DNA of 64,000 nucleotides. It comes from Gemmatimonadaceae bacterium (lineage in GTDB: Bacteria; Gemmatimonadota; Gemmatimonadetes; Gemmatimonadales; Gemmatimonadaceae). Under the pieces are notes generated by a model, which made no database searches, had not been told where the DNA came from, and was given only the letters and a program-made list of their open reading frames with translations. This document shows, one piece after another, positions 27,064-42,899 of the stretch. The stretch covers positions 62,001-126,000 of the forward strand of contig JBBJNV010000006.1 in assembly GCA_037721215.1 (NCBI GenBank), written 5' to 3'. The position numbers and the translations under genes were made by a program. Each line of letters opens with the position of its first letter. Position 1 is the first letter of the stretch.

Positions 27064-29403
27064 ATGACGCGAGCAGTCCTTGCTCTTTTTGCATTGATGG
27101 TGATGGCTGCGCCGCGATCCCTGTTCTCCCGGGAACGCGGCGCGGTTGCGTGGGGAACAGTGGGGTCGGAATGGGAAACCGACGCGCGTCGCGTGCTGGT
27201 AATCGGTGCACATCCTGATGATGAGGATACGCAGCTGATCGCCTGGCTACAGCGCGGCGGCCGCGCCGAAACGGCTTATCTGTCACTCACTCGTGGCGAT
27301 GGCGGCCAGAATCTGATTGGAAATGAGCTGGGCGAGGCGCTGGGAATAATCCGCACCGAGGAGCTGCTCGCGGCGAGGCGTGTCGACGGCGCGCACCAGT
27401 TCTTTACGAGAGCATACGATTTTGGTTTTTCCAAGAATGCAGCTGAAACCTTTGCGCACTGGCCCAGAGATTCTCTGCTCAACGATGTCGTCAAAGTCGT
27501 TCGCGCGTTCAGGCCGCATGTCATCGTATCGATTTTCTCTGGTACACCGCGTGACGGACATGGCCAGCACCAGGTATCCGGCATCATCACCAGGGAAGTG
27601 TACCAGGTGGCGTCGGATACTATAAAGTTCCCGGCGAACAGGTTTGGACCGGCGTGGTCTCCCCTAAAGCTGTATCAGGCGGCGCGCTTCGCGCCCGACG
27701 CGGCCACGCTTCGCTTCAATGTCGGCGAATACAACTCAGCGTTGGGCAGATCGTATGCAGAGATTGCCGGTGAGAGCCGGTCTCAGCACAAGTCTCAGGG
27801 TTTCGGAAGTCTGCAGCGGAAAGGGGTCGTGTGGGACTATTTGCGCCGCGAGCAGAGCCGGGTAAACGAGAGTTCTGACGCCAAAACAGAACAAGGCATT
27901 TTCGACGGACTCGAGGGCATTCCAGCAGCAGGTTCCGCGGGTGACGCCGCTGGCGCGATCACAGCAGCGGGGGTTGCGGTGGAGGCAATTGCCGACCGGC
28001 GGCACCTGGCATTGGGCGACAGCGCCAACGTTACTGTGACCGTGTTCAACCGGTCTCGATCACCGGTCTCCATTCCGCGTTCTGCAGGCGACAGCAATGG
28101 TGGGTCCGGTACGATGATTGTGGTTGCATCGGACAGCAGCTATCGGTGGATGACATACGTGCGGGGCGTGCCAATCACCCAGCCGTGGTGGCTCGCCGTT
28201 CCAAGACGGGGAGATCTCTTCGCGCCCCCTATCGGCGTGATATCGGAAGACGAGCGCGAGAAAAGTGAGTGGCTGCGGGTGCCGGTCTCAATTGCCGGTG
28301 CAGCTCCGGTCGAGGTGCGTGTCCCCATCGTGTTCCGCTTCGCCGACGCAATTCGGGGGGAAGTGCAACGTCCACTCGCGGTAACTCCCTCCATCAGTGT
28401 GGCCCTTGATCGGCCGGTCGAGATATCGAGAGCCAGTGCGCCTCTCGACAAGTTTTTCAACGTAACGCTCCGGTCGGCATTGATGCGAAGGCAGCCGGTT
28501 ACGGTGTCGCTGGTGCTGCCGGCCGGACTGACGGCCGATTCAGCGTCGAGAGTAGTGCCCCTGGATTCTGGAGGCACGAGAACGATCAGCTTTCGAGTGC
28601 GGGGCCGCCTTGCCGCCGGCGTTCACGTGATCAGCGCTACTGCATCGATGAATGGGACCACATACAATTCCGGATTCGTGCCGATCGATTACGAGCACAT
28701 CACTCCGCAGCGGCAGTACCGGCGTGCAGAAGTGCGAATGGCGACTATCGACGTCGCTGTTCCCGCAAATTTGCGTGTTGCCTATGTCCCTGGTGTCGGT
28801 GACAACGTGGCGCCGGCACTCGCGCAGCTTGGCATCCCGGTGACGGTGGTCGAGGCAGCCTCGATACCCACCGTCGATCTGTCTCGCTTCACGGCGGTCG
28901 TCGTCGGGCCCCGCGCCTACGAATCAAACCGGGAGCTGATAAGCAATAATCCATATCTTCTCGACTTCGCCATGCGCGGAGGCACATTGGTCGTTCAATT
29001 CGGTCAATACGAAATGATGCGGGAAGGGGTCATGCCGTATCCGATCACCATCACCCGGCCTCACGATCGCGTTACCGAGGAAAACGTTCCTGTCACCATC
29101 CTCGATGCGGGCTCGCCTGCGCTGGGCTATCCTAACCGCATTACCAGTTCCGATTTCGACGGCTGGGTTCAGGAGCGGGGACTGTACATGCCCCGTACAT
29201 TCGACGCGCGGTATCGTCCGCTGCTCGCGATGAATGATCCGGGGGAAGCCGCTAACCGCGGAGCCGTGCTCATCACTCCGTACGGGAGGGGGATGTACAT
29301 CTATACAACGCTGGCATTTTTCAGACAGTTGCCGGTTGGAGTCACCGGCGCAACACGCCTGTTCGTGAATCTTCTTTCCATGAAGGGAGAAAGGGCGCGA
29401 TGA
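27064..29403 (+). CDS. Secreted PIG-L family deacetylase with Ig-like and amidotransferase-like domains
   Basis: From ATG 27064 the protein is 779 residues with a signal-like N-terminus (AVLALFALMVMAAP). The PIG-L zinc site is clear: IGAHPDDED near residue 45, with GHGQHQ as the late His motif, so it should hydrolyse an N-acetyl group on a sugar or glycolipid. After about residue 300 come beta-sandwich segments (VTVTVFNRSRSPVSIP; MRRQPVTVSLVLPAGLTA) of the NEW3/Ig type, and a C-terminal Rossmann-like region (VTVVEAASIPTVDLSRF; RGGTLVVQFGQYE) like ThuA/class I amidotransferase folds. The stop overlaps the next gene (ATGA). It may release or modify a saccharide or siderophore-like ligand outside the cell. 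Confidence 0.88.
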   Translation: MTRAVLALFALMVMAAPRSLFSRERGAVAWGTVGSEWETDARRVLVIGAHPDDEDTQLIAWLQRGGRAETAYLSLTRGDGGQNLIGNELGEALGIIRTEELLAARRVDGAHQFFTRAYDFGFSKNAAETFAHWPRDSLLNDVVKVVRAFRPHVIVSIFSGTPRDGHGQHQVSGIITREVYQVASDTIKFPANRFGPAWSPLKLYQAARFAPDAATLRFNVGEYNSALGRSYAEIAGESRSQHKSQGFGSLQRKGVVWDYLRREQSRVNESSDAKTEQGIFDGLEGIPAAGSAGDAAGAITAAGVAVEAIADRRHLALGDSANVTVTVFNRSRSPVSIPRSAGDSNGGSGTMIVVASDSSYRWMTYVRGVPITQPWWLAVPRRGDLFAPPIGVISEDEREKSEWLRVPVSIAGAAPVEVRVPIVFRFADAIRGEVQRPLAVTPSISVALDRPVEISRASAPLDKFFNVTLRSALMRRQPVTVSLVLPAGLTADSASRVVPLDSGGTRTISFRVRGRLAAGVHVISATASMNGTTYNSGFVPIDYEHITPQRQYRRAEVRMATIDVAVPANLRVAYVPGVGDNVAPALAQLGIPVTVVEAASIPTVDLSRFTAVVVGPRAYESNRELISNNPYLLDFAMRGGTLVVQFGQYEMMREGVMPYPITITRPHDRVTEENVPVTILDAGSPALGYPNRITSSDFDGWVQERGLYMPRTFDARYRPLLAMNDPGEAANRGAVLITPYGRGMYIYTTLAFFRQLPVGVTGATRLFVNLLSMKGERAR

Positions 29404-30545
29404 ATACCGACATGCTGAATCTGCCACGAAGACGCGAAGGCATGAAGTCATGGCGGCGGAACGAAGAAGGCAGGCGCATGCCGCTCAGTGGATGCCTGCG
29501 TCGTTCGTCAGAAAAGTTGCGACTGGCGATAACGATTGCGACGGGACTCGTCACAATCTCCTGCAGCAGTGACGAGCGAACGGTTCTTACTGTGTATTCT
29601 CCGCACGGTAAGGATCTGCTTGGATATTTCGAGCAGGGATTCGAAAAAGCGAATCCCACTATCGACGTGCAGTGGGTCGACATGGGATCCCAGGAAGTCC
29701 TCGACCGCGTGAGGGCCGAAGCGGCAAATCCGCAGGCAGATATCTGGTTCGGTGCGCCGGCTGAGGCATTTGACCGCGCGACGAAAGAGAACCTGCTCCA
29801 GCCGTATATCCCCACATGGTCGAACTCGGTGAGCGTCGAAGGACGTGACGGTGGCGATCACTGGTACGGTACGTATCTGACGCCGGAAGTCATCGGATAC
29901 AACACAGCCGCAGTATCGCGTGCTGACGCGCCAAAGGACTGGGATGATGTGCTCGATCCGAAATGGAAGGGAAAGATTCTCATCCGCGACCCGATCGCCT
30001 CGGGCACGATGCGGGCGATTTTCGGAGCCATCATCGCCCGCTCAGTAGCACGGACGGGCTCGCCGGAGCAGGGGTATGCGTGGCTGCGCAAACTCGACGC
30101 GAATACACGTGAATACGTACTCAATCCCACCATTCTGTACCAGAAGCTCGGCAGGCAGGAAGGCGTCATTACACTTTGGGACATGCCGGATATCGCGACG
30201 TTGCAGCAACGTCTCAAGATTCCGGTGGATTATGTCATTCCGTCGAGCGGAACACCGCTGCTGGTAGACGGCATCGCGGTGGTTCGCGGAACGGAACGCA
30301 TGAAAGAGGCGCAGCTGTACTACGAGTTCGTCACAACTCCCGAGGCACTCATCGCCTCGGCGGACAAGTTTCTGCGAATACCTGCCCGCACCGACATTCC
30401 CGCCGCCTCGCTGCCGAAGTGGATTCAGGATGCGAAGGCGAAGATCAAGCCGATGCCTGTAGACCGGAAAGTGATGGCCGAAAATCTGAACGACTGGATG
30501 AAGTACTGGGACGCGAATATCAGGAACAGCGGACGCAATAAGTGA
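29400..30545 (+). CDS. ABC transporter substrate-binding lipoprotein, ferric iron type
   Basis: This 381-residue protein (355 from the better start, ATG 29478) has a lipobox (VTISCSS) and a periplasmic-binding-protein body with VLTVYSPHGKDLLGYFEQGF, WVDMGSQEVLDRVRAEAANP, ADIWFGAPAEAF, YNTAAVSRADAPKDWDDVLD and GKILIRDPIASGTMRAIFGA. These match the AfuA/FbpA-like class that binds ferric iron or other small ligands. Its GTGA stop-start overlap with the ATPase gene and the two-domain permease further on make a complete FbpABC-style importer. The first 26 residues from ATG 29400 (charged, MKSWRRNEEGRR) look like an accidental extension, so the translation start is probably 29478. Confidence 0.87.
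   Translation: MNTDMLNLPRRREGMKSWRRNEEGRRMPLSGCLRRSSEKLRLAITIATGLVTISCSSDERTVLTVYSPHGKDLLGYFEQGFEKANPTIDVQWVDMGSQEVLDRVRAEAANPQADIWFGAPAEAFDRATKENLLQPYIPTWSNSVSVEGRDGGDHWYGTYLTPEVIGYNTAAVSRADAPKDWDDVLDPKWKGKILIRDPIASGTMRAIFGAIIARSVARTGSPEQGYAWLRKLDANTREYVLNPTILYQKLGRQEGVITLWDMPDIATLQQRLKIPVDYVIPSSGTPLLVDGIAVVRGTERMKEAQLYYEFVTTPEALIASADKFLRIPARTDIPAASLPKWIQDAKAKIKPMPVDRKVMAENLNDWMKYWDANIRNSGRNK
29423..29472 (+). repeat. Possible intergenic repeat captured in the N-terminal extension
   Basis: The bases CCACGAAGACGCGAAGGCAT at 29423, followed by GAAG-rich sequence, resemble a CCACGAAGACACGAAGGC repeat I know from some environmental genomes. It sits between the PIG-L gene stop and the probable true start of the lipoprotein gene. 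The family assignment is from memory and unverified. Confidence 0.3.
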
Positions 30546-31609
30546 GTGACGGCGGCGGCGCGCTGGCGCTGCGCGGAATCACCCGCCGCTTTGGGGAGCA
30601 TGCAGCCGTCGACAATGTTTCGCTCGATATTCCCGCAGGAGAGCTGCTGGCACTAATAGGCGCGTCCGGCTCCGGAAAAACAACGACGCTGAGAATTACC
30701 GCGGGATACGAAACACCGGACGCGGGTCAGGTATTGCTGGACGGCAGGGATATCACGTCACTGCCGCCGCAGAAACGCGGATTCGGAATGGTGTTTCAGC
30801 ATTACGCGCTGTTTCCACACATGCCTGTCGAGGAGAATGTGGCGTTTGGGCTCGAGGCTCGGGGCGTGGACCGCACGACCCGTCTCGCCCGTGCCCGCGA
30901 GGTGCTGGAATCAGTTGGGTTGGGCGGGGCCGGTAAACGAGGCATTCAGTCGCTGTCCGGAGGAGAACAGCAGCGGGTTGCACTTGCCCGGGCACTGGTG
31001 ATCGAGCCCAGTGTTCTGCTCCTCGACGAGCCTTTGTCCAACCTGGATCCGACACTGAGGCAGAGCACGCGCGACGAGCTGCGATCGATGCTGCACCGGG
31101 TCGGAGTGCCGGCGTTATTCGTGACGCACGATCAGGAGGATGCGTTCGCGATCGCCGACAGGATCGCTCTGCTCCGGAAGGGAAGGCTCCTTCAGATTGG
31201 CAGATCCGATGATCTCTACGACCGGCCGGAATCGCTCGAAGTAGCGCGGTTCATAGGACGGGCGACAATTCTGCCGGGCGAAGAGCTGGGAGAGCGGGTG
31301 GCGGTCACGGTGGGTGGACGCCGAATGGAATTCGCGGCAACGCGTTCGCAGGCGAGCAATGGCCAGAGGGGCCGGCCGCTCGTCGTTTTCCGTCCAGATG
31401 CTCTCGACCTCGATTCTTCGGAGAACCACGACACATGGCGCGGCCAGGTGGTCGACCGCCGTTTCACAGGGGGAAGTGCAATCTATAAAGTGAAGCTTGC
31501 AGACGACGTCACTGTTGAGGTCGCTTCGCCGAAGATGGGGTTGCGCGAAGGGGACACGACGGGAGTAAGGGTGATTCGCGAGCCGTTGCCAGTGGTATAT
31601 GGTGACTGA
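30542..31609 (+). CDS. ABC transporter ATP-binding protein, ferric iron/spermidine type
   Basis: This 355-residue ATPase powers the importer. The Walker A is GASGSGKTT (residues 40-48), the Q-loop VFQHYALFPHM, the signature LSGGEQQRVALARAL (near 138), Walker B VLLLDEPLSNLDP and the H-loop VTHDQ. A C-terminal TOBE-like beta domain (about 250-355) is typical of the FbpC/PotA/CysA branch. The GTG start overlaps the binding-protein stop by 4 bp. The absence of the FbpC-type C-terminal iron-sensing motif cannot be judged by eye. The ferric ligand is inferred from the binding protein. Confidence 0.9.
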   Translation: MSDGGGALALRGITRRFGEHAAVDNVSLDIPAGELLALIGASGSGKTTTLRITAGYETPDAGQVLLDGRDITSLPPQKRGFGMVFQHYALFPHMPVEENVAFGLEARGVDRTTRLARAREVLESVGLGGAGKRGIQSLSGGEQQRVALARALVIEPSVLLLDEPLSNLDPTLRQSTRDELRSMLHRVGVPALFVTHDQEDAFAIADRIALLRKGRLLQIGRSDDLYDRPESLEVARFIGRATILPGEELGERVAVTVGGRRMEFAATRSQASNGQRGRPLVVFRPDALDLDSSENHDTWRGQVVDRRFTGGSAIYKVKLADDVTVEVASPKMGLREGDTTGVRVIREPLPVVYGD

Positions 31610-31672
31610 GGCGATGAAACTCCCGTCGGGTTTGCGCGTGACTGATCGCTGCGATAAGGCCGTTGTTTTCGC

Positions 31673-33325
31673 GTGAGTAGTCGCGCGTCCCGGAGCAACT
31701 GGTTGCTTGCGTTTCCGGTTCTGGTGTTGCTGATGTGGACCGTGGCGTTTCCCAATATCGCCGTCATTGCCGGCAGCTTTGAAAACGGCCTCGGCCACTG
31801 GCGTGAATTCCTGGCCAGCCCCTCAGACCGCGAAGCGCTTACAACAAGCATCGTGATCTCGCTGGCGTCCGTCGTGGCGTCGCTGATGATCGGAGTTCCC
31901 CTCGCGTTTCTGCTGAGTCGCTTTGAGTTTCCGGGAAGAAAGGTTCTCCGCGGGGTGGCAACCCTTCCGGCAGCTCTGCCTCCACTGGTCGGAGTGATTG
32001 CATTTCTATTCCTCTACGGCGAAAGCGGCATTGTAACGCGCACCGTGCAGACAATCTTTGGAATGGACGAGGCGCCCTGGAGACTCACTGGCGTGTGGGC
32101 GATCATCTTCGTGCACGCGTACACCATGTATGTCTACGTGTTTCTGTTCGTGTCGGCCGGGCTCGAACGATTCGACACCACTCTCGACGAAGCGGCCTCA
32201 GGGCTCGGGGCGAGCTCATGGACCAGGTTGCGGCGCGTGACACTTCCTCTTCTGACGCCCGCATTGGCGGGGTCGATGCTGCTCGTGTTCATGACCTCCC
32301 TCGGATCATTCTCGGCGCCGTATGTCTTTGGCGGCGGGATCAGAGTGCTGTCCACCCAGATCGTCGCATCGAAGCTCAACGGTTCGCTGGGGCTCGCATA
32401 TGTGGAGACGACTGTTCTCGCGATCAGCGCGGTGGCGGGCCTGGCGTTATTCCGGTGGCTCGAACGAAAGCGAAAATACACATCATCCGGAAAGGGAAGC
32501 GCAACCAGAAAGGCTGTCGGCTCGCGGCGGGCCGCGGTGATCGCGGCCGTAATGGCCGCCGTCGTGGTAGTAGTGCTTATCCTTCCGCATCTGATGGTAG
32601 TACTGGTGTCATTCGCTGTCGATGGCGCATGGACCACTCAGGTTCTGCCTCCACAATACACACTCGATAACTACCGGCAGTTGTTTACTGATCCCCAGTT
32701 GTGGCGACCGATAGTCAACAGTGTTTCGATGGCGACGGTGGCCACGGCAGCGAACGTTGTGGTCTGTTCTGTAGCGGCTTATCTCATCGTTCTGCGCAAG
32801 TTCAACGGGAGGCGGCTGCTCGAAGTTCTGGTGGCACTGCCGTGGGCGATACCGGCTACGGCCATTGCGCTTGGACTGGCGGCGACCTTCAACAGGAACG
32901 ATCCCGGAGCAGGACGAGTCCTGCTGGTGGGTACGTTCTGGATCCTGCCGCTGGCGTACTTCATCAGAGGGATTCCACTCGTGTCGACGGCGGTCGAGGG
33001 TTCATTGAGACAGCTCGATCCGTCGCTCGAGGACGCCGCACGTGGCCTTGGGGCTTCATGGTGGCTGACGATGAAACGCGTGGTGCTTCCGGCCGCTCGC
33101 CCCGGCCTGGTGGCTGGAGCCCTGCTTGCTGCTGTTACAGCCGTCGGTGAGTTCGTCGCCGGAGTCGTTCTGTACACGCACGCGAACAGACCGATATCGA
33201 TAGAGATTCTCGCGCAGCTCCGTGCACTCGCGTTTGGCACCGCAGCGTCGTACAGTGTGCTGCTGATCGTACTGGTGCTGATCATGACGTTCGCCGCACG
33301 CGGTCTCGAGGAGCGAATGGCGTAG
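31673..33325 (+). CDS. ABC transporter permease with two fused transmembrane domains (FbpB-like)
   Basis: This 550-residue protein has about 12 transmembrane helices in two copies of the binding-protein-dependent permease domain. Each half has an EAA-loop motif: FDTTLDEAASGLGASSWTRL (first) and LDPSLEDAARGLGASWWLTM (second). This fused layout is the standard for FbpB/SfuB ferric permeases. The start is GTG 31673, 63 bp after the ATPase gene; the stop is one base before the MATE gene ATG, so at least four genes are one transcript. Confidence 0.9.
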   Translation: MSSRASRSNWLLAFPVLVLLMWTVAFPNIAVIAGSFENGLGHWREFLASPSDREALTTSIVISLASVVASLMIGVPLAFLLSRFEFPGRKVLRGVATLPAALPPLVGVIAFLFLYGESGIVTRTVQTIFGMDEAPWRLTGVWAIIFVHAYTMYVYVFLFVSAGLERFDTTLDEAASGLGASSWTRLRRVTLPLLTPALAGSMLLVFMTSLGSFSAPYVFGGGIRVLSTQIVASKLNGSLGLAYVETTVLAISAVAGLALFRWLERKRKYTSSGKGSATRKAVGSRRAAVIAAVMAAVVVVVLILPHLMVVLVSFAVDGAWTTQVLPPQYTLDNYRQLFTDPQLWRPIVNSVSMATVATAANVVVCSVAAYLIVLRKFNGRRLLEVLVALPWAIPATAIALGLAATFNRNDPGAGRVLLVGTFWILPLAYFIRGIPLVSTAVEGSLRQLDPSLEDAARGLGASWWLTMKRVVLPAARPGLVAGALLAAVTAVGEFVAGVVLYTHANRPISIEILAQLRALAFGTAASYSVLLIVLVLIMTFAARGLEERMA

Positions 33326-34833: not shown

Positions 34834-36147
34834 TTACTTGATCACTATCCCAGTCACATAGAGCGTCAGCATTCCCGCGAGCACACCGGCAAACGTTACC
34901 AGCGGCGCGGATCGCTCGCCCGTCTCCTTCCACAGCATGTTCCGGCCGATCGACCACGCGACCTGAAAGACCGCGCCCGCGCCGATCGACAGGAACAACA
35001 CCGCGAGCGCCTGCGAAGAAACCAGCCCGCCTATCCACGCGCCAATTATCGCGGGCGCGCCGCCGATCAATCCAAGCAGTGCAAGTGATCGCAGTGATGG
35101 GCGGTCCTTCGCGATCGGGACGACGATCCCCAACCCTTCGGTGATGTTCTGAATGATGAATCCCACCACCAGAAACGTTCCGAGCGCCGCGGCACCGACG
35201 CTGTATGCAGCGCCGATGGCGAGCCCCTCGCCAAGGTTGTGAAGACCGATTCCAACGGCGACCACCACCGCCAGCGACATGCGCTGTCCCGATTCGCTCC
35301 GCGTAACGCTCTGCTGATGGCGTCCGATTGCGTCGAGCAGCAGCCACGTTCCGACGATGCCGATGCCGACAATTCCGGTTCCCTGAAACGCGCCGCCGAG
35401 CAGCCCGCCAATCTCAAGCGCTTCAACTGTTGCGTCGAGCCCGAGATAGATGAGCAGTCCCACCGTCGCCGCCATGAGAAATGTCATCGTCCGCGGTCCA
35501 AGCTCGCGAAGCAACGGCAGCCAGAACATGCCGAGCAGGATCGGGATCACTCCTACGTAGAGCCCAATGAGCGTGAAGCTCCAGAGCGTCGAGCCAGTCG
35601 TTGTGGCAGTGATGGCCGCGACTTCGATGGCAGTGGTGAATGCCACCGAATTGCTGGACAGTACCGCGATGTCGTAGGCCTCGCCATGAACCCAGGCATA
35701 GTTGAGCGTCAAGGTTGCACCGCCCAGTCGCGCGACATCGCGGCTCGGAGTAATTGCAAATGGCCAGATGGCGTCGTTGATGTTGACCTGAGCGACCCTT
35801 ATCGCCTGGGGGCTGGTGTTGCGGAGATGGATCCGGATTATTCCGGGGGTGAGCTCCGTCCGTCCGAACTGCACACTCTCGATCGGCGCGGCGGGTGTGA
35901 CGTTGAGACCGGCTCCACTCGTGTAGACGAATAGGGCGATGACTACGCCGAGCAGGAGCAGTGGCGCGAAGAACAGCAACAGTTTCGCGGATCGGGTGCG
36001 TCCTATCCGGCCAGTTCGTGCCGGCGCGCCAGTGGTGGTTGTTGTGTCCGACCTGTCCGATGTGTCCGATTGGCCCGATGCGGCCGGTTGGCCCGATGCG
36101 TCCGGTGTGTGCACAGTCCGCGGACCCGCCGCAGTCGCCGGCGTCAT
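34834..36147 (-). CDS. ZIP family metal transporter with an N-terminal extracytoplasmic beta domain
   Basis: This 437-residue protein begins with a Thr/Ser/Asp/Pro-rich cytoplasmic tail (about 1-52), a transmembrane helix (about 54-77, LLFFAPLLLLGVVIALFVY), and then a beta-rich extracytoplasmic domain (about 85-175: VQFGRTELTPGIIRIHLRNT, RVAQVNINDAIWPF). After that comes an eight-helix ZIP body with the metal-site motif GIGLHNLGEGLAIG and the partner IIQNITEGLGIVVPIA. Known ZIPs lack such a fused domain. ATG 36147 overlaps the oxidase stop (ATGA). As part of the operon it probably moves divalent metal, Fe2+, Mn2+ or Zn2+; direction is inferred as uptake. Confidence 0.88.
   Translation of the reverse strand: MTPATAAGPRTVHTPDASGQPAASGQSDTSDRSDTTTTTGAPARTGRIGRTRSAKLLLFFAPLLLLGVVIALFVYTSGAGLNVTPAAPIESVQFGRTELTPGIIRIHLRNTSPQAIRVAQVNINDAIWPFAITPSRDVARLGGATLTLNYAWVHGEAYDIAVLSSNSVAFTTAIEVAAITATTTGSTLWSFTLIGLYVGVIPILLGMFWLPLLRELGPRTMTFLMAATVGLLIYLGLDATVEALEIGGLLGGAFQGTGIVGIGIVGTWLLLDAIGRHQQSVTRSESGQRMSLAVVVAVGIGLHNLGEGLAIGAAYSVGAAALGTFLVVGFIIQNITEGLGIVVPIAKDRPSLRSLALLGLIGGAPAIIGAWIGGLVSSQALAVLFLSIGAGAVFQVAWSIGRNMLWKETGERSAPLVTFAGVLAGMLTLYVTGIVIK
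36044..36108 (-). repeat. Minisatellite-like tract in the ZIP N-terminal tail
   Basis: Degenerate repeats of a TCCGA/CCCGATGCG unit (plus-strand view) cover about 65 bp. They encode the Ser/Asp/Gly/Gln-rich tail before the first helix, with ASGQ and SD(T/R) steps. Slippage there would alter the length of a tail outside the conserved domains. Confidence 0.55.
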
Positions 36148-37202
36148 GCCGAAACTTCGAACACGCCGGTCCATCCCAGCTCGGCGAATTCTGTCTTGTG
36201 GGCGTGGAACATGTAGCGCCCGGGATGCTTGTAGCTGAACTCCAGTATTCCCCGCTGGCCCTGCATCAGTGCGATGGTATCGGTGAACTCGGCGGGCGTG
36301 AGACTCGTGCCGGTCGGGAAGTAGTGAAAGAAGTTCGCGTGAAGATGAAACGAGTTGGCGATGTCGTACTCCAGTATGTTGACGAGGTAAACGCGCACCT
36401 TCTCGCCGACTCGGAGTGTGATGGGGTGTTTGCCGTGATCGTAATGAAAGGGAATTCCGTTGACGAGATAGAAATCGTTGGCCCCGTCGAAATCGACATC
36501 GTATCCGGCCATGACCATCACCATCTCACGATCGACCGCAGGCCTTCCTCCCTTTGGATCGATGATGAAAGTGCCGTAGAGCCCTTTCGCAATGTGTTTG
36601 GCGAGTGGCGCGGTGTGGCAATGGTAGAGGTGAAGCCCGAACGGTTCGGCGTCGAATTCATAGGTGTGACGACCGCCTGGCTGAACGACTCCGGACTGCA
36701 TGTCGAACACGCCGTCGACGAGCCCCGGGTGGACACCGTGGAAATGGGTACTGTGCGGATGATCGCTGGCGTTGACCATGGTGATGCGCACGCGGTCGCC
36801 TTCGGTTACCCGGATAGTCGGACCCGGAATGCGGCCGTTGTAGGTCCACGCCGCGAACTCGACCCCGGGCACGATCTCGATGGTCTGGTTCTGCGCGACG
36901 AGATTGTATTCGCGGAGAGTCTGGCCGCTGGGAAGCGTGCTGACTTTTCCGCCGTCGAAGTCGGTGAGCATCGCGGTCGGATTAAACCCGTTTTTCGCGT
37001 GATCCACTTCTCCGACCACGGTCGGCATCACATGGGTGCCCGGCTCGGGCCCCGTTGTATGGGTCCCGGCGCCAAGTGACTCGACGCCCTGCGCAAACCC
37101 GCCCTGAGTTATGCCGAGGGCAGCGGCACCAATGAGGCCAGTGCCTCCGATGCCTGCCCTGACGAAACCACGTCGCGAAATCGCCTGAGAGTCCTCAGTC
37201 AT
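36144..37202 (-). CDS. Tat-exported two-domain multicopper oxidase
   Basis: This 352-residue protein starts at ATG 37202 and has a twin-arginine signal (SRRGFVRAG). It has two cupredoxin domains. All eight His of the trinuclear site are visible: THFHG, YHCHTAPLAKH, SFHLHANFF and FHAHKTEF. The type 1 site is only in domain 1 (Cys and His of HCHTAPLAKH, then the partner near KGLYG); domain 2 has no Cys. This is the two-domain, type-1-in-domain-1 arrangement seen in some laccase-like oxidases and in NirK relatives. It probably oxidises a metal (Fe2+, Mn2+ or Cu+) in the periplasm. Its 8-bp overlap with the barrel gene and 4-bp overlap with the ZIP gene show coupling. Confidence 0.9.
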   Translation of the reverse strand: MTEDSQAISRRGFVRAGIGGTGLIGAAALGITQGGFAQGVESLGAGTHTTGPEPGTHVMPTVVGEVDHAKNGFNPTAMLTDFDGGKVSTLPSGQTLREYNLVAQNQTIEIVPGVEFAAWTYNGRIPGPTIRVTEGDRVRITMVNASDHPHSTHFHGVHPGLVDGVFDMQSGVVQPGGRHTYEFDAEPFGLHLYHCHTAPLAKHIAKGLYGTFIIDPKGGRPAVDREMVMVMAGYDVDFDGANDFYLVNGIPFHYDHGKHPITLRVGEKVRVYLVNILEYDIANSFHLHANFFHYFPTGTSLTPAEFTDTIALMQGQRGILEFSYKHPGRYMFHAHKTEFAELGWTGVFEVSA

Positions 37203-38061
37203 CGCTACCGCCATCGCGAGTCCGGGTGAACGAATGCTCGAAGCTCACATAGAAAAACAGCGAGCGCTCGCCTCGGCTCGTACCGATCCCAAATGGAATC
37301 GCAATCCCGGGGACGATCTGAAGACCAGACGGAAGATTAATAGCGCCGCGAAGTCCCGGAGCCAGGACCAGCTCGTTAGTTCGGGCGTTGCCGCCGTCCT
37401 CAAGTAGTGCATCGGTGCTGGTGTAGGCGAGTTCGAGCATGAAATTCAACGCTGGCCTCGCAAGCCAGATCAGGCTTTGTCCGGCGTTGAAGCTCATCGT
37501 GGGGCCGCGGTCTCCGCTGGCATTCTCCGCTGACGGCGTGTACGTCGTCCCGGCATTGAAATGGGTTACCACTGTCGGCGAAATCATCGCGCTCACTGGG
37601 AGATTGAACTGCGCGCCCGCGCCGCCAGATCCGCGTCCGGTCCGCACTTCGCCGGTCGGGATCAACAGGGATAGCCGGGGAGCTACGGCGAGCATATGGT
37701 CGCGGCCGGTTGGCAACTGGTACCGGTAGTTGAGCCCGATGTCCCCCACTCCCGTGTTGAGCGGAGATCCATTTCGTTCGACAGGCAGCGTGTAGCTCAG
37801 TTGATGCCGCTGGCTGAACAGCGGCCACTCCTGGGTGAAGCTATATGCCCAGGATTTTCCGTCTCTGTCGAGGGAAAAGGTGTTGATATGCTGCACGACG
37901 CCGGCGGGCTGGTTGTAGGCCTCCTCGATGAGGAAGCTATTGTCCTGGATCGGCGTGGGAGATTCCGGAGGTGGACCGGGCTGTTGAGCACCAATCGAAC
38001 TGGTGAACGCCACGCCGAGGGTGAGGATCCACTTTGTGGTCTGTGCGCTACCGAATGTCAT
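37195..38061 (-). CDS. Outer-membrane beta-barrel protein of unknown function
   Basis: This 288-residue protein has a signal peptide ending near SSIGAQ. The rest alternates polar and hydrophobic residues in short strands (INTFSLDR, AYSFTQEWPL, HQLSYTLPV, GLNYRYQL, APRLSLLIPT, FMLELAYTS, FYVSFEHSF), the pattern of a 10-14-stranded barrel. The GVGDIGLNYRYQLP and ARPALNFMLELAYT wording resembles the transporter family near Phenol_MetA_deg (PF13557). It is the first gene of the operon with the multicopper oxidase and ZIP transporter. It may be the metal or ligand pore of the outer membrane. The substrate is unknown. Confidence 0.8.
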   Translation of the reverse strand: MTFGSAQTTKWILTLGVAFTSSIGAQQPGPPPESPTPIQDNSFLIEEAYNQPAGVVQHINTFSLDRDGKSWAYSFTQEWPLFSQRHQLSYTLPVERNGSPLNTGVGDIGLNYRYQLPTGRDHMLAVAPRLSLLIPTGEVRTGRGSGGAGAQFNLPVSAMISPTVVTHFNAGTTYTPSAENASGDRGPTMSFNAGQSLIWLARPALNFMLELAYTSTDALLEDGGNARTNELVLAPGLRGAINLPSGLQIVPGIAIPFGIGTSRGERSLFFYVSFEHSFTRTRDGGSDD

Positions 38062-38105
38062 TTGATGAGGAAATCCGCAAGAAGGATTCAGGACGAGGTT
38101 AGAGA

Positions 38106-38127
38106 TAAGTTAGGATATCCTAACTTA
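38106..38127. promoter_or_regulatory. Perfect 22-bp palindrome, candidate DtxR/MntR-family operator
   Basis: Each arm reads TAAGTTAGGAT and the two are exact reverse complements with no spacer. The core TTAGGATATCCTAA resembles the TTAGG...CCTAA half-sites of DtxR/IdeR operators. It overlaps the -10 box of the metal operon promoter, so a bound regulator would block RNA polymerase. No DtxR-type gene is in this window. Confidence 0.75.
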
Positions 38128-38140
38128 AGCGTAATGTCAA
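38112..38140 (-). promoter_or_regulatory. Sigma70-like promoter of the barrel-oxidase-ZIP operon
   Basis: On the minus strand, TTGACA (38140-38135) is followed after 17 bp by TATCCT (38117-38112), a perfect -35 and a 4/6 match to the -10. The predicted start lies about 45 bp before the barrel ATG. The -10 is embedded in the 22-bp palindrome. Confidence 0.7.
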
Positions 38141-39373: not shown

Positions 39374-40243
39374 CTACTCTCCCGTCTTTCCCAACGCGGC
39401 CGGCGGAACTGCCCGGCCTACCACTCCCGCGAGTGCAATGATGGTGAGGACATAGGGAATCATCTCGACGAATTGCGACGCAATGATCTCATTCCCCTGA
39501 AGCTGAATCTGCAGTGTCTCCGCCGCCGCGAACAACAGGCAGGCGAGCGCCGCACGTATGGGGTCCCATCTACCGAAGATCACCGCTGCGACGGCGATAA
39601 ATCCGCGACCAGCGGTCATCTGATCGGTAAACTGATGCTGGTCGAGAGCGAGGAAAACGCCACCGAGCGCGGCGAGCATCCCCGATAACGCAACAGCGAC
39701 GTAACGCACCCGCCCGACGCTGATACCGACGCTCTCGGCCGCTTCCGGATGTTCGCCAACAGCGCGTACCCGTAGCCCATAAGGTGTGCGGTAAATGAGA
39801 AACGCGAGCAGCGGAGCGACAATCAGCCCCAGCCATAGCAGCGGATTGTCGAATCCCCGTGCGCTGACATTGGTTCTGAACCCGTCGATGCGGGGCGAAT
39901 TGGACGAGCTATCGAATGCAAGCTTGAGAAAAAACCTCGTCACTCCAATTGCAAGGAGATTGACCGCAATTCCGGTAACAACCTGATCGGCACGAAAGCG
40001 AATGGTAGCAAGCGCGTGGATAAGTCCGAATATCAGGCCTCCCAGGATACCACAGAGAAGCCCGATCCAGACACTGCCCGAATAGAACGATCCAAGTGTC
40101 GCTGAGAACGCGCCGGTGAGCATGTAGCCTTCGAGCGATAGCGTGATGATACCGGCCCGCTCAGCGACAACTCCACCGCTCGCCGCAAACAGGTACGGAA
40201 CCGCTATACGCAGCGTCTGAGTTATGAAATCGAAGGGATTCAC
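39374..40243 (-). CDS. ABC permease of a BMP-type nucleoside importer (second)
   Basis: This 289-residue membrane protein has eight to nine helices and matches the YufQ/NupQ/RnsD branch (GVVAERAGIITLSLEGYMLTG; GERAG- and LEGYM-type start; AVGEHPEAAESVGISVGRVR). It pairs with the larger permease upstream to form the heterodimeric channel. ATG 40243 overlaps the preceding stop by four bases. The neighbours define the substrate class as nucleoside-like. Confidence 0.9.
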   Translation of the reverse strand: MNPFDFITQTLRIAVPYLFAASGGVVAERAGIITLSLEGYMLTGAFSATLGSFYSGSVWIGLLCGILGGLIFGLIHALATIRFRADQVVTGIAVNLLAIGVTRFFLKLAFDSSSNSPRIDGFRTNVSARGFDNPLLWLGLIVAPLLAFLIYRTPYGLRVRAVGEHPEAAESVGISVGRVRYVAVALSGMLAALGGVFLALDQHQFTDQMTAGRGFIAVAAVIFGRWDPIRAALACLLFAAAETLQIQLQGNEIIASQFVEMIPYVLTIIALAGVVGRAVPPAALGKTGE

Positions 40244-41304
40244 GCAGCAGCCGGCTTACGAGTCAGCCGCAGTACGCGGCGGACTTCAGGGACAGACATG
40301 GCAACGGCGAGGATGACTACTCCCTGAAGTACCTCGACCATCTGCTTGGGGACAAACGCATGGATGGCCAATCCACCCTGCGAAAGTGTGGCGAAGAACA
40401 GCGCCGCGAGTACTACTCCGAGCGGATGGTTTCGTCCAACGAGGGCGACCGCTATCCCCAGGAATCCCGCACCACCGGCCAACCCGTCTTCGTAGTAATG
40501 CTTGTAGCCAAGGACGTAATTGATGCCCCCAAGCCCTGCCAGAACGCCGGAAAGAGCCAGCGTCCTGAACCACGTCCGGCCAACGTTCACTCCGCCGTAC
40601 TCCGCTGCGTCGGGCTGCAGTCCGACCGCGCGGAGCTCAAATCCACCTCGGCTCCGGAACAGAAAATACCAGACCCCTGCCGCCGCAATGAGCGCAACGA
40701 CAATGCTGAGATTGGCCGCCGATCCGTGGAACGCAGGAATGAACGAGTCCAGTCGCGAGATCGAGCCGGCTTCAATTGCCGGTGTATGAAGAGTCTCCGG
40801 CACATGCAGATGGTTGGCGATGATCCAATTGAGCAGCGCTAGCACGATGAAATTGAGCATGATCGTGACGATGACTTCATGCGCGCCAAACCTGACCTTC
40901 AGAAATCCCGGCACTGCACCGACTATTCCCCCGCCTACTGCCGCAGCAAACATGCAGAGGGGAATCGCAACGATCCATGGAATCGCCGGTGACAGAACGA
41001 GGCCCATCATCGCAGCGAGAAATGCTCCGGCCGCCAGCTGACTTTCTGCGCCGACGTTGAATAACCCGGCGCGAATGCCGATTGATACCGCAAGTCCCGT
41101 AAAAATGAGCGTTGTTGCCTTGTACAAAACCTGACCCAGGCCGTAGGCATTGCCCCACGTGCCTTCGAGCAGCAGACGATAAACCGTTGCCGGCGACTGG
41201 CCGTAGCTCATGATCAGCAGATCGCCGCAGATGAGCGCGACGAGGAGCGCAACCAGCGGCGGGTACAGCGCTTCCTCCAGTTGCTCGCGAAACCGGGATG
41301 TCAC
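40240..41304 (-). CDS. ABC permease of a BMP-type nucleoside importer (first)
   Basis: This 354-residue protein has about ten helices. It carries LFNVGAESQLAAGAFLAAM (the NVGAEGQ-like signature of the YufP/NupP branch) and AVGLQPDAAEYGGVNVGRTW, which corresponds to a motif in the partner permease. A charged cytoplasmic start (SRFREQLEEALYPPL) precedes helix 1. It overlaps both neighbours by four bases. Confidence 0.9.
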   Translation of the reverse strand: MTSRFREQLEEALYPPLVALLVALICGDLLIMSYGQSPATVYRLLLEGTWGNAYGLGQVLYKATTLIFTGLAVSIGIRAGLFNVGAESQLAAGAFLAAMMGLVLSPAIPWIVAIPLCMFAAAVGGGIVGAVPGFLKVRFGAHEVIVTIMLNFIVLALLNWIIANHLHVPETLHTPAIEAGSISRLDSFIPAFHGSAANLSIVVALIAAAGVWYFLFRSRGGFELRAVGLQPDAAEYGGVNVGRTWFRTLALSGVLAGLGGINYVLGYKHYYEDGLAGGAGFLGIAVALVGRNHPLGVVLAALFFATLSQGGLAIHAFVPKQMVEVLQGVVILAVAMSVPEVRRVLRLTRKPAAA

Positions 41305-42899
41305 GCCACCGACTCCTTTTTCGCTCCGATCATGTACTCGCCGAGTAAGTCTGCAGAGGCGTCGGCCGCACCGATAACTGTTGCGAACCTGCCGCGGTAC
41401 ATGACGGCAATTCTATCGGCAAGCGCGAGCACCTCATTGAGTTCTGCCGAGACCAGCAGTATCGCCTTTCCGGCAGCGCGCGCTTCGCGCAGGCGCGAGT
41501 GGATGAACTCGATTGCCCCCACGTCGACACCGCGGGTGGGTTGGGAGGCAAGCAGCACTGAGAACCGCCGCCCCATCTCCCTTGCCACCACCACCTTCTG
41601 CTGATTTCCGCCGGAAAGTGATCGAGCCCGAAGTTCAGCGGAAGGCGGTCGAATGTCGAATGCCTCGATTTGAGCCTTGGCATTGCCCGCGATGCGGCCT
41701 TCATCGAGAATCCCGCGCCGGGCGAACTCATGCTGCCGGCCCAGCACGAGATTGTCAGCGACGGAGTAGTCGAGGATGAGGCCGCGACGATGCCGGTCTT
41801 CGGGAATGTGCGAAAGGCCTGCTTCGCGGCGTTGCCCGACATTGTCGAATGTCACATCGCGTCCACCCAGCCGTATACTTCCCGATTCGACGGCACGCAA
41901 TCCGGCAAGAGCTTCGATCAGTTCGGTCTGACCGTTGCCTTCCACTCCGGCGATTCCCAGTATCTCACCGGGCATCACCGAGAACGTCAGGCCGTCCACC
42001 TCGCACGTCCCGCGTGAACCCCGGACTACGAGATCAGTGACATTCAGGGCGGAAGACGAACCGGTAATTATGTGGGTTCCCTTATGATCTCCGATTGCCC
42101 CGGGAGCATTCCCCTCGCTCATTTCCTGACGCGTCGAGAGCGCCACCTCCCGGCCGACCATCGCTTTTGCAATCTGAGCGGGTGTCGTCGAGCCGGTCGC
42201 GAGCCGGTCGACAGTTTCGCCGCTACGCATGACTGTAATGACATCCGAGATGTCGACGACCTCGTCAAGCCGATGGGTGATGAGAACGATGGTGCTACCT
42301 GCGTCCCTGAGCCGGCGCAGGACTACCCACAAGTCACGAACTTCCGGCGGTGAGAGAACCGCAGTAGGCTCGTCGAGAACGAGAATCTTCGCCCCTCTGA
42401 ACAACGTCTTGAGAATTTCCACCCGTTGCGCTTCACCCACGGACAGCTCGGCGACCTTCTGGTCCGCGCGCACGGCCAGCCCCGTCTCCTTGCTCAGCGT
42501 CTCGACCTCAGCGACCGCCCACGCATTGTCGAATCGCAAACCTTTTACCGGCTCCTGGCCGAGCACTACGTTTTCAGCCACAGTGAGGCTGGGGACAAGC
42601 ATGAAATGCTGATGCACTACTCCAATTCCAGCGGCGATCGCCTCGCTGGTGGTCCAGCCCGTGACATCCCTGCCCTCGATTTCCAGCGTCCCTGCATCCG
42701 GCTTCTGGAGGCCACCGAGAATCCGCATCAGTGTGGACTTGCCGGCACCGTTCTCGCCGACCAGCGCGTGAATCTCGCCCTTCAGAACCTCCAGCGAAGC
42801 GCCTCGATTCGCGCGCACGGATCCGAAAGACTTGTCGATGCCCCGCATCAGAATGGCCGGAACCTGTTTTTCCGGAGATCCGGCCGGCTGAGATGTCAT
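41301..42899 (-). CDS. ABC ATPase with two nucleotide-binding domains (nucleoside importer)
   Basis: This 532-residue protein has two ATPase domains. The first has GENGAGKSTLMRILGG and LSVGEAQRVEILKTLF (signature with VGE) and VLDEPTAVLSPPEV. The second has GVEGNGQTELIEALAG (degenerate Walker A), SLSGGNQQKVVVAREM and a weak Walker B region (QPTRGVDVG). The degenerate second site is normal for RbsA/NupO-like ATPases. It couples to the two permeases and the BMP lipoprotein for uptake of purine or pyrimidine nucleosides. Overlaps of four bases tie it to both sides. Confidence 0.93.
   Translation of the reverse strand: MTSQPAGSPEKQVPAILMRGIDKSFGSVRANRGASLEVLKGEIHALVGENGAGKSTLMRILGGLQKPDAGTLEIEGRDVTGWTTSEAIAAGIGVVHQHFMLVPSLTVAENVVLGQEPVKGLRFDNAWAVAEVETLSKETGLAVRADQKVAELSVGEAQRVEILKTLFRGAKILVLDEPTAVLSPPEVRDLWVVLRRLRDAGSTIVLITHRLDEVVDISDVITVMRSGETVDRLATGSTTPAQIAKAMVGREVALSTRQEMSEGNAPGAIGDHKGTHIITGSSSALNVTDLVVRGSRGTCEVDGLTFSVMPGEILGIAGVEGNGQTELIEALAGLRAVESGSIRLGGRDVTFDNVGQRREAGLSHIPEDRHRRGLILDYSVADNLVLGRQHEFARRGILDEGRIAGNAKAQIEAFDIRPPSAELRARSLSGGNQQKVVVAREMGRRFSVLLASQPTRGVDVGAIEFIHSRLREARAAGKAILLVSAELNEVLALADRIAVMYRGRFATVIGAADASADLLGEYMIGAKKESVA

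Follow-up and report, generated by a model that had tools for sequence, protein, structure and literature searches.

A candidate MntR-type operator on an operon for an outer-membrane barrel, a two-domain multicopper oxidase and a ZIP transporter in a Gemmatimonadaceae bacterium

Here we report a three-gene operon in a 64,000-nucleotide stretch of DNA (the window) from a Gemmatimonadaceae bacterium (assembly GCA_037721215.1, contig JBBJNV010000006.1, positions 62,001 to 126,000), which encodes an outer-membrane barrel, a two-domain multicopper oxidase (MCO) and a ZIP-family transporter. We suggest, with a probability of roughly 0.55, that the operon serves oxidase-coupled uptake of manganese or iron and is repressed by an MntR-type regulator of the DtxR family. 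Two-domain oxidases encoded beside ZIP genes are common and have even been crystallized, yet we found no tested role for them in the open-access literature. The features of the locus are as follows (ORF, open reading frame).

37195-38061, minus strand: barrel ORF, outer-membrane beta-barrel channel, 288 aa
36144-37214, minus strand: two-domain MCO ORF, type-C layout, twin-arginine signal SRRGFVR
34834-36147, minus strand: ZIP-family transporter, likely start 36147 (the longest ORF extends to 36174)
38112-38140, minus strand: sigma-70-like promoter TTGACA-17-TATCCT, with its -10 within the operator
38106-38127: perfect 22-bp palindrome TAAGTTAGGATATCCTAACTTA, putative MntR/DtxR-type operator, core TTAGG-N4-CCTAA

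An earlier note on this DNA had described three overlapping minus-strand genes with one promoter and a palindrome covering its -10, and this description was borne out in full: the barrel, MCO and ZIP ORFs were all found and overlap, the minus-strand TTGACA-17-TATCCT is the sole promoter match between 37900 and 38300 (shuffled sequences average 0.2), and TAAGTTAGGATATCCTAACTTA contains the -10 TATCCT. Allowing up to 3 mismatches, the palindrome occurs once in the 64-kb window and in 0 of 100 shuffles, and no second exact match to its 14-bp core, TTAGG-N4-CCTAA, exists anywhere in the 3.5-Mb genome; sites with one mismatch elsewhere in the genome look like chance and were set aside. Within the operon, the more likely ZIP start on reading the sequence is the ATG at 36147, whose ATGA overlap with the MCO stop suggests translational coupling, and the MCO has an alternative in-frame ATG at 37202.

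The association of MCO with ZIP is widely conserved. At a threshold of at least 53% identity, MCO orthologues are present in 11 of 61 related genomes searched, the window counted, and ZIP adjoins in every one; in a wider sample, drawn from a collection of 84,980 species and limited to the 80 best of 153 loci, so that more distant relatives lie outside it, ZIP is directly downstream of the MCO in 79, the exception being a contig edge. The two sets overlap slightly, as two or three of the 80 loci belong to genomes that also supplied one of the 11 Gemmatimonadota orthologues. Each of the nine annotated plasmid neighbourhoods inspected also had the pair; they span Actinomycetota, Deinococcota, Cyanobacteriota, Bacillota, Alphaproteobacteria and Halobacteria. 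The earlier note would have given up its three-gene system had relatives lacked a conserved neighbourhood; for MCO and ZIP that objection falls away, whereas the barrel is part of the set in Gemmatimonadota only, adjoining the pair in 6 of the 11 orthologue loci, upstream in some and downstream in others.

Of 89 loci, 42 have a regulator gene of the DtxR/MntR family next to the pair, as do 7 of the 11 Gemmatimonadota orthologue loci. The gene order is dtxR-barrel-MCO-ZIP in one locus (L009), while a plasmid of Arthrobacter FB24 carries a divergent DtxR gene followed by MCO and ZIP in a row; NRAMP/MntH-type genes are neighbours in 9 loci, and the neighbouring regulator is annotated by NCBI as mntR in Sinorhizobium pSinB and in Sulfitobacter. 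Metal-ligand residues separate MntR from the iron-type DtxR proteins, and at the MntR positions D is present in 43 of 47 regulators, E in 33, and the further E and H in 45-46. The column with E in 33 otherwise holds D, H, Q or a gap, and never the Cys of Fe-type DtxR.

A motif scan of 78 operon-start regions, with the window left out, ranked all 1024 palindromic 5-mer half-sites at a 4-base gap. TTAGG came first at up to one mismatch (18 of 78 loci; the next, TAAAT, had 11) and was exact in 9 loci, while no other half-site was exact in more than 1; when gaps of 0-10 were scanned, the top entries were this box again in shifted register (TTTAG-N6-CTAAA and neighbouring registers). Counted over whole loci, TTAGG-N4-CCTAA was barely more frequent than control palindromes (31 versus 7-25), so that only its position at operon starts is exceptional and our argument relies on the operon-start scan. 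The motif is also found in loci L114, L035 and L118 and in Chloroflexota and Deinococcus loci; in L114 a TTGACA-17-TAACCT promoter lies over the box with the same spacing as the window promoter, and a Deinococcus plasmid copy has the exact box on its promoter. A putative palindromic operator overlapping the promoter, as expected of a DtxR/MntR regulon, thus appears to be common to orthologous operons. Together with the adjacent DtxR/MntR genes and the Mn-type ligands of the regulators, the cross-phylum scan supports what had begun as a guess at a DtxR/MntR-type operator. The pSinB copy has a different palindrome upstream, ATTATAGCACTTGCTATAAT, which we take to resemble the enterobacterial MntR box. 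In three Chloroflexota loci (L041, L043 and L052) the operator box is followed by a gene for a membrane protein of roughly 230 aa (cluster 15); this gene separates the box from the MCO in L043 and L052, where it apparently opens the operon.

The MCO (356 aa) contains only two cupredoxin domains, matching Pfam Cu-oxidase_3 at 108-221 and Cu-oxidase_2 at 249-355. Domain 1 bears HFHG and YHCHTAPLAKHIAKGLYG (YHCH...H), and domain 2 bears FHLH and FHAH with no Cys; judged by its four HxH motifs, the enzyme is a type-C two-domain multicopper oxidase with a predicted T1 copper in domain 1. The T1 axial position is Leu here and Met in several relatives. Its nearest solved relatives are 3GDC from Arthrobacter FB24 (E 1e-118), with which it aligns end to end, and 7RAB/7RAC (E 6e-107); a search of the open-access literature found no paper characterizing the 3GDC/7RAB enzymes. 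The FB24 host, with its DtxR-MCO-ZIP plasmid locus, is Gram-positive and, unlike the window, has no barrel. Of 86 members of the MCO family, 80 carry a twin-arginine motif in their N-terminal region, and in one Cytobacillus locus tatA directly follows ZIP.

The ZIP ORF (446 aa) matches Pfam Zip at E=4e-8 (33.3 bits, just under the cut-off of 35.1) and also matches ZupT. Its predicted model has one N-terminal transmembrane (TM) helix, an 8-strand periplasmic beta-sandwich (about residues 100-185) and an 8-TM core, the fold match of which is BbZIP of Bordetella bronchiseptica (Foldseek E 2e-6). The TM4 motif HNxGEG and the TM5 motif [QH]NxTEG are invariant in 61 of 61 members apart from Q/H and T/S variation, and these motifs together with the ZIP fold place the transporter within the ZIP (SLC39-like) family. 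It shares with BbZIP the core fold and M1-type H/E/[QH]/E ligands, and differs from it in the extra TM helix, the beta-sandwich and a D-x3-E-x2-E motif in TM3 (D247, E251, E254) that is acidic in 57-61 of the 61 members. The acids of the second BbZIP site are lost: the D208 position is an invariant N343 and the E240 position is A, G, V or S, mostly A. By these positions the family appears to lack the binuclear site, which is not present in all ZIPs. No conserved His or Cys was found in the beta-sandwich among the 61 aligned members, so docking seems likelier there than metal binding, and on the predicted model this domain is probably a docking module for the oxidase.

That the first gene encodes an outer-membrane barrel, as originally proposed, agrees with its AF2 model (pLDDT 84), which has an outer-membrane barrel fold whose nearest solved structures are the COG4313 channel 4rl8 (Z 22.8) and FapF 5o68 (Z 22.6). 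The window protein itself has no Pfam match by sequence; PF13557 (Phenol_MetA_deg) matches weakly in 8 of 15 relatives. We considered whether the barrel is PcoB/CopB and rejected this, as there is no sequence match and the PcoB fold scores only Z 12.4. A role as dedicated partner of the pair was likewise set aside, since some homologues occur by themselves or in the vicinity of Kup-like genes. In four loci (L139, L140, L141 and L142, of genomes G005, G018, G033 and G015) homologues lie near ORFs for Kup-like potassium transporters, with no MCO or ZIP. One possibility is that proteins of the barrel family serve as small, general channels and partner with various importers of the inner membrane.

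A repressor box over the -10 and a Mn-type regulator suggest that the operon is on when manganese (or iron) is short, and hence that it serves uptake, while the pairing of oxidase with permease suggests a coupling like that of yeast Fet3-Ftr1. In the mechanism we propose, metal-loaded repressor bound to TTAGG-N4-CCTAA would block transcription when manganese (or iron) is sufficient, and the operon would be expressed when the metal runs short. The barrel would then provide a solute path across the outer membrane; the Tat-exported, copper-loaded oxidase would use O2 to oxidize, in the periplasm, either the metal itself or another reduced metal that competes with it; and the ZIP, with its beta-sandwich as docking module and the acidic D-x3-E-x2-E of its third helix, would move the metal through the inner membrane. 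Fet3-Ftr1 serves as a working analogy, in that an extracytoplasmic multicopper oxidase is coupled to a permease, and differs in that the window permease is a ZIP and not FTR1 and its oxidase has two domains and not three. Repression, the direction of uptake, docking between oxidase and ZIP and the identity of the metal are what we infer from this arrangement; were the operon for uptake, manganese would be the metal at slightly better than even odds, iron a lesser candidate and copper the least probable of the three.

Several observations weigh against this proposal. The sole DtxR-family gene of this genome (C20:50514) has a D/E/E/H/H ligand set of MntR type and matches MntR models under the equivalog cut-off, and it lies on another contig beside mntH, not adjoining the operon; regulation in trans must therefore be assumed. 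There is no TTAGG box before the genome's mntH and none within 2 mismatches near mntH-usp-mntR, and a 3-mismatch site at the mntH promoter was not counted as an operator. With the regulator distant and no box at mntH, its link to the operator in this genome is a presumed one. The row itself (L113, G000:C20:44000-53000) consists of mntH, a UspA-like ORF and the MntR-type regulator. Plasmid pairs of Rhodococcus and Cytobacillus sit in metal-resistance islands (ArsR, P-type ATPases) with no DtxR gene. ZIP proteins normally carry M(II), so it is not obvious what would be gained by first oxidizing the metal to M(III). Finally, in the part of the study drawn on here, a comparable pair in Nitrososphaera viennensis responds modestly to copper limitation (PMC7785015).

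The alternative that fares best, though we consider it unlikely, is ferroxidase-coupled iron uptake, in which the oxidase would make Fe(III), the acidic helix of the ZIP would take it, and the regulator would sense iron as well as manganese. No Fur-family protein was found in this genome, so its single DtxR-family protein may cover iron as well, and the E-x2-E-type acids of TM3 resemble Ftr1 motifs. Some DtxR-family repressors, such as TroR of Treponema denticola, respond to both metals (PMC2628430). The permease is nonetheless a ZIP and not FTR1, and the ligand set of the regulator is Mn-type.

Somewhat less probable again is copper uptake, in which the oxidase would convert Cu(I) to Cu(II) for import by the ZIP. 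This has been proposed for ammonia-oxidizing archaea (AOA), where an MCO1-ZIP permease pair (N. viennensis NVIE_000600/NVIE_000590) is described (Reyes et al. 2020, PMC7785015, citing Kerou et al. 2016). In what we draw from that source, the likeness to the window is considerable: a two-domain MCO gene adjoins a zinc/iron (ZIP) permease gene, uptake by oxidase and permease together is proposed, T1 is coordinated by Cys, two His and Leu, so that the axial Leu is common to N. viennensis MCO1 and the window MCO, and the adjacent MCO1 and ZIP genes rise under copper limitation (log2 FC 0.81 and 1.33). A PCu(A)C copper chaperone and a P-type ATPase also adjoin the pair in pSinB. The regulators beside bacterial pairs, however, are of MntR/DtxR type and not copper sensors, and the same part of PMC7785015 describes the archaeal role as not validated and notes that MCO1 responses in N. 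maritimus conflict. The AOA pair differs further, as described there, in that copper is the proposed metal and neither an outer-membrane barrel nor an MntR/DtxR link or operator is mentioned; this comparison is by description and not by sequence.

Doubtful too, and more so, is metal or copper detoxification, with the MCO and an outer-membrane protein acting as in PcoA/PcoB or a Sinorhizobium MCO operon and the ZIP ancillary. Plasmid islands with CDF, ArsR and P-type ATPases surround some pairs, and the Omp-CueO operon of S. meliloti is known for copper resistance (PMC6266702). PcoA-PcoB and CopA-CopB likewise encode an MCO together with an outer-membrane barrel, but their barrel and MCO belong to other families, and a ZIP and MntR-type control form no part of these systems: the window MCO has two domains, unlike PcoA/CueO, and scores 93 bits against the CopA model TIGR01480 (cut-off 479), while the window barrel has no PcoB sequence match and a far closer fold in COG4313 (Z 22.8) than in PcoB (Z 12.4). 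An operator over the -10 would also imply repression by metal and not induction.

Laccase-like oxidation of phenols or aromatics, with the barrel as a channel for hydrophobics and the ZIP supplying metal cofactors, draws on the COG4313-like fold, the weak Phenol_MetA_deg match and a Rhodococcus opacus R7 MCO (57% identical to 3GDC) among genes differentially expressed on polyethylene, but is very improbable given the near-universal ZIP and frequent MntR pairing across monoderms and archaea without a barrel.

Returning to MntR-controlled uptake of manganese or iron, it has a parallel in mntH regulons under MntR, as MntR-type regulators and MntH-like genes stand beside the pair and a palindromic operator lies on the promoter; we found no published case of MntR control of an MCO-ZIP pair in the open-access literature. 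The earlier note knew of no characterized system of these three genes, and this stands only in part: the MCO-ZIP pair is described in AOA (PMC7785015), while no paper including the barrel was found in the open-access literature. As far as that source and this literature go, three things are new here: the bacterial breadth of the pair, the accompanying barrel and, with the conserved operator, the link to MntR. In the part of PMC7785015 drawn on, the MCO1 lineage is reported to be restricted to Thaumarchaeota. MntR-type operators and MntR neighbours in many phyla point to manganese or iron, and not to the copper guessed for the archaeal pair. If the oxidase feeds the ZIP, the pair would be a prokaryotic oxidase-coupled importer built on ZIP instead of FTR1, and uptake of manganese or iron would hinge on the supply of copper. 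Culturable hosts of the pair (Arthrobacter, Deinococcus, Sulfitobacter and Sinorhizobium) allow a direct test.

In the MCO tree the window clade and Chloroflexota sequences together form a clade with SH-aLRT 93, separate from the other Gemmatimonadota orthologues (SH-aLRT 100), an arrangement that suggests transfer between phyla. Barrels adjoin MCO-ZIP in both Gemmatimonadota clades, and their own tree is weakly resolved; repeated recruitment of the barrel fits these positions and this tree without being proved by them and, if real, would argue for a functional tie in diderms. A broader and more tentative idea, which we hold to be less likely than not, is that the pair represents a cross-domain, MntR-controlled system for manganese (or manganese/iron) import, in which the oxidase would hand the oxidized ion via the beta-sandwich to the acidic pathway of the ZIP, making it a prokaryotic ZIP-based counterpart of Fet3-Ftr1 whose channel was recruited more than once in Gemmatimonadota.

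Other genes stand near these loci. The signal peptidase II gene lspA adjoins MCO-ZIP in Rhodococcus pBD2 (L149) and Arthrobacter pAD51 (L150), and pAD51 also carries the thiol-redox genes CcdA, TlpA and VKOR beside the pair. On the plus strand of the window, 29400-33325 encodes an ABC importer (solute-binding protein, ATPase and fused double permease) that falls between the ferric, 2-aminoethylphosphonate and polyamine types and under all NCBIfam equivalog cut-offs. The ABC transporter genes at 39374-42899, on the minus strand, come nearest to a family of putative vitamin B6 importers, also under the cut-offs.

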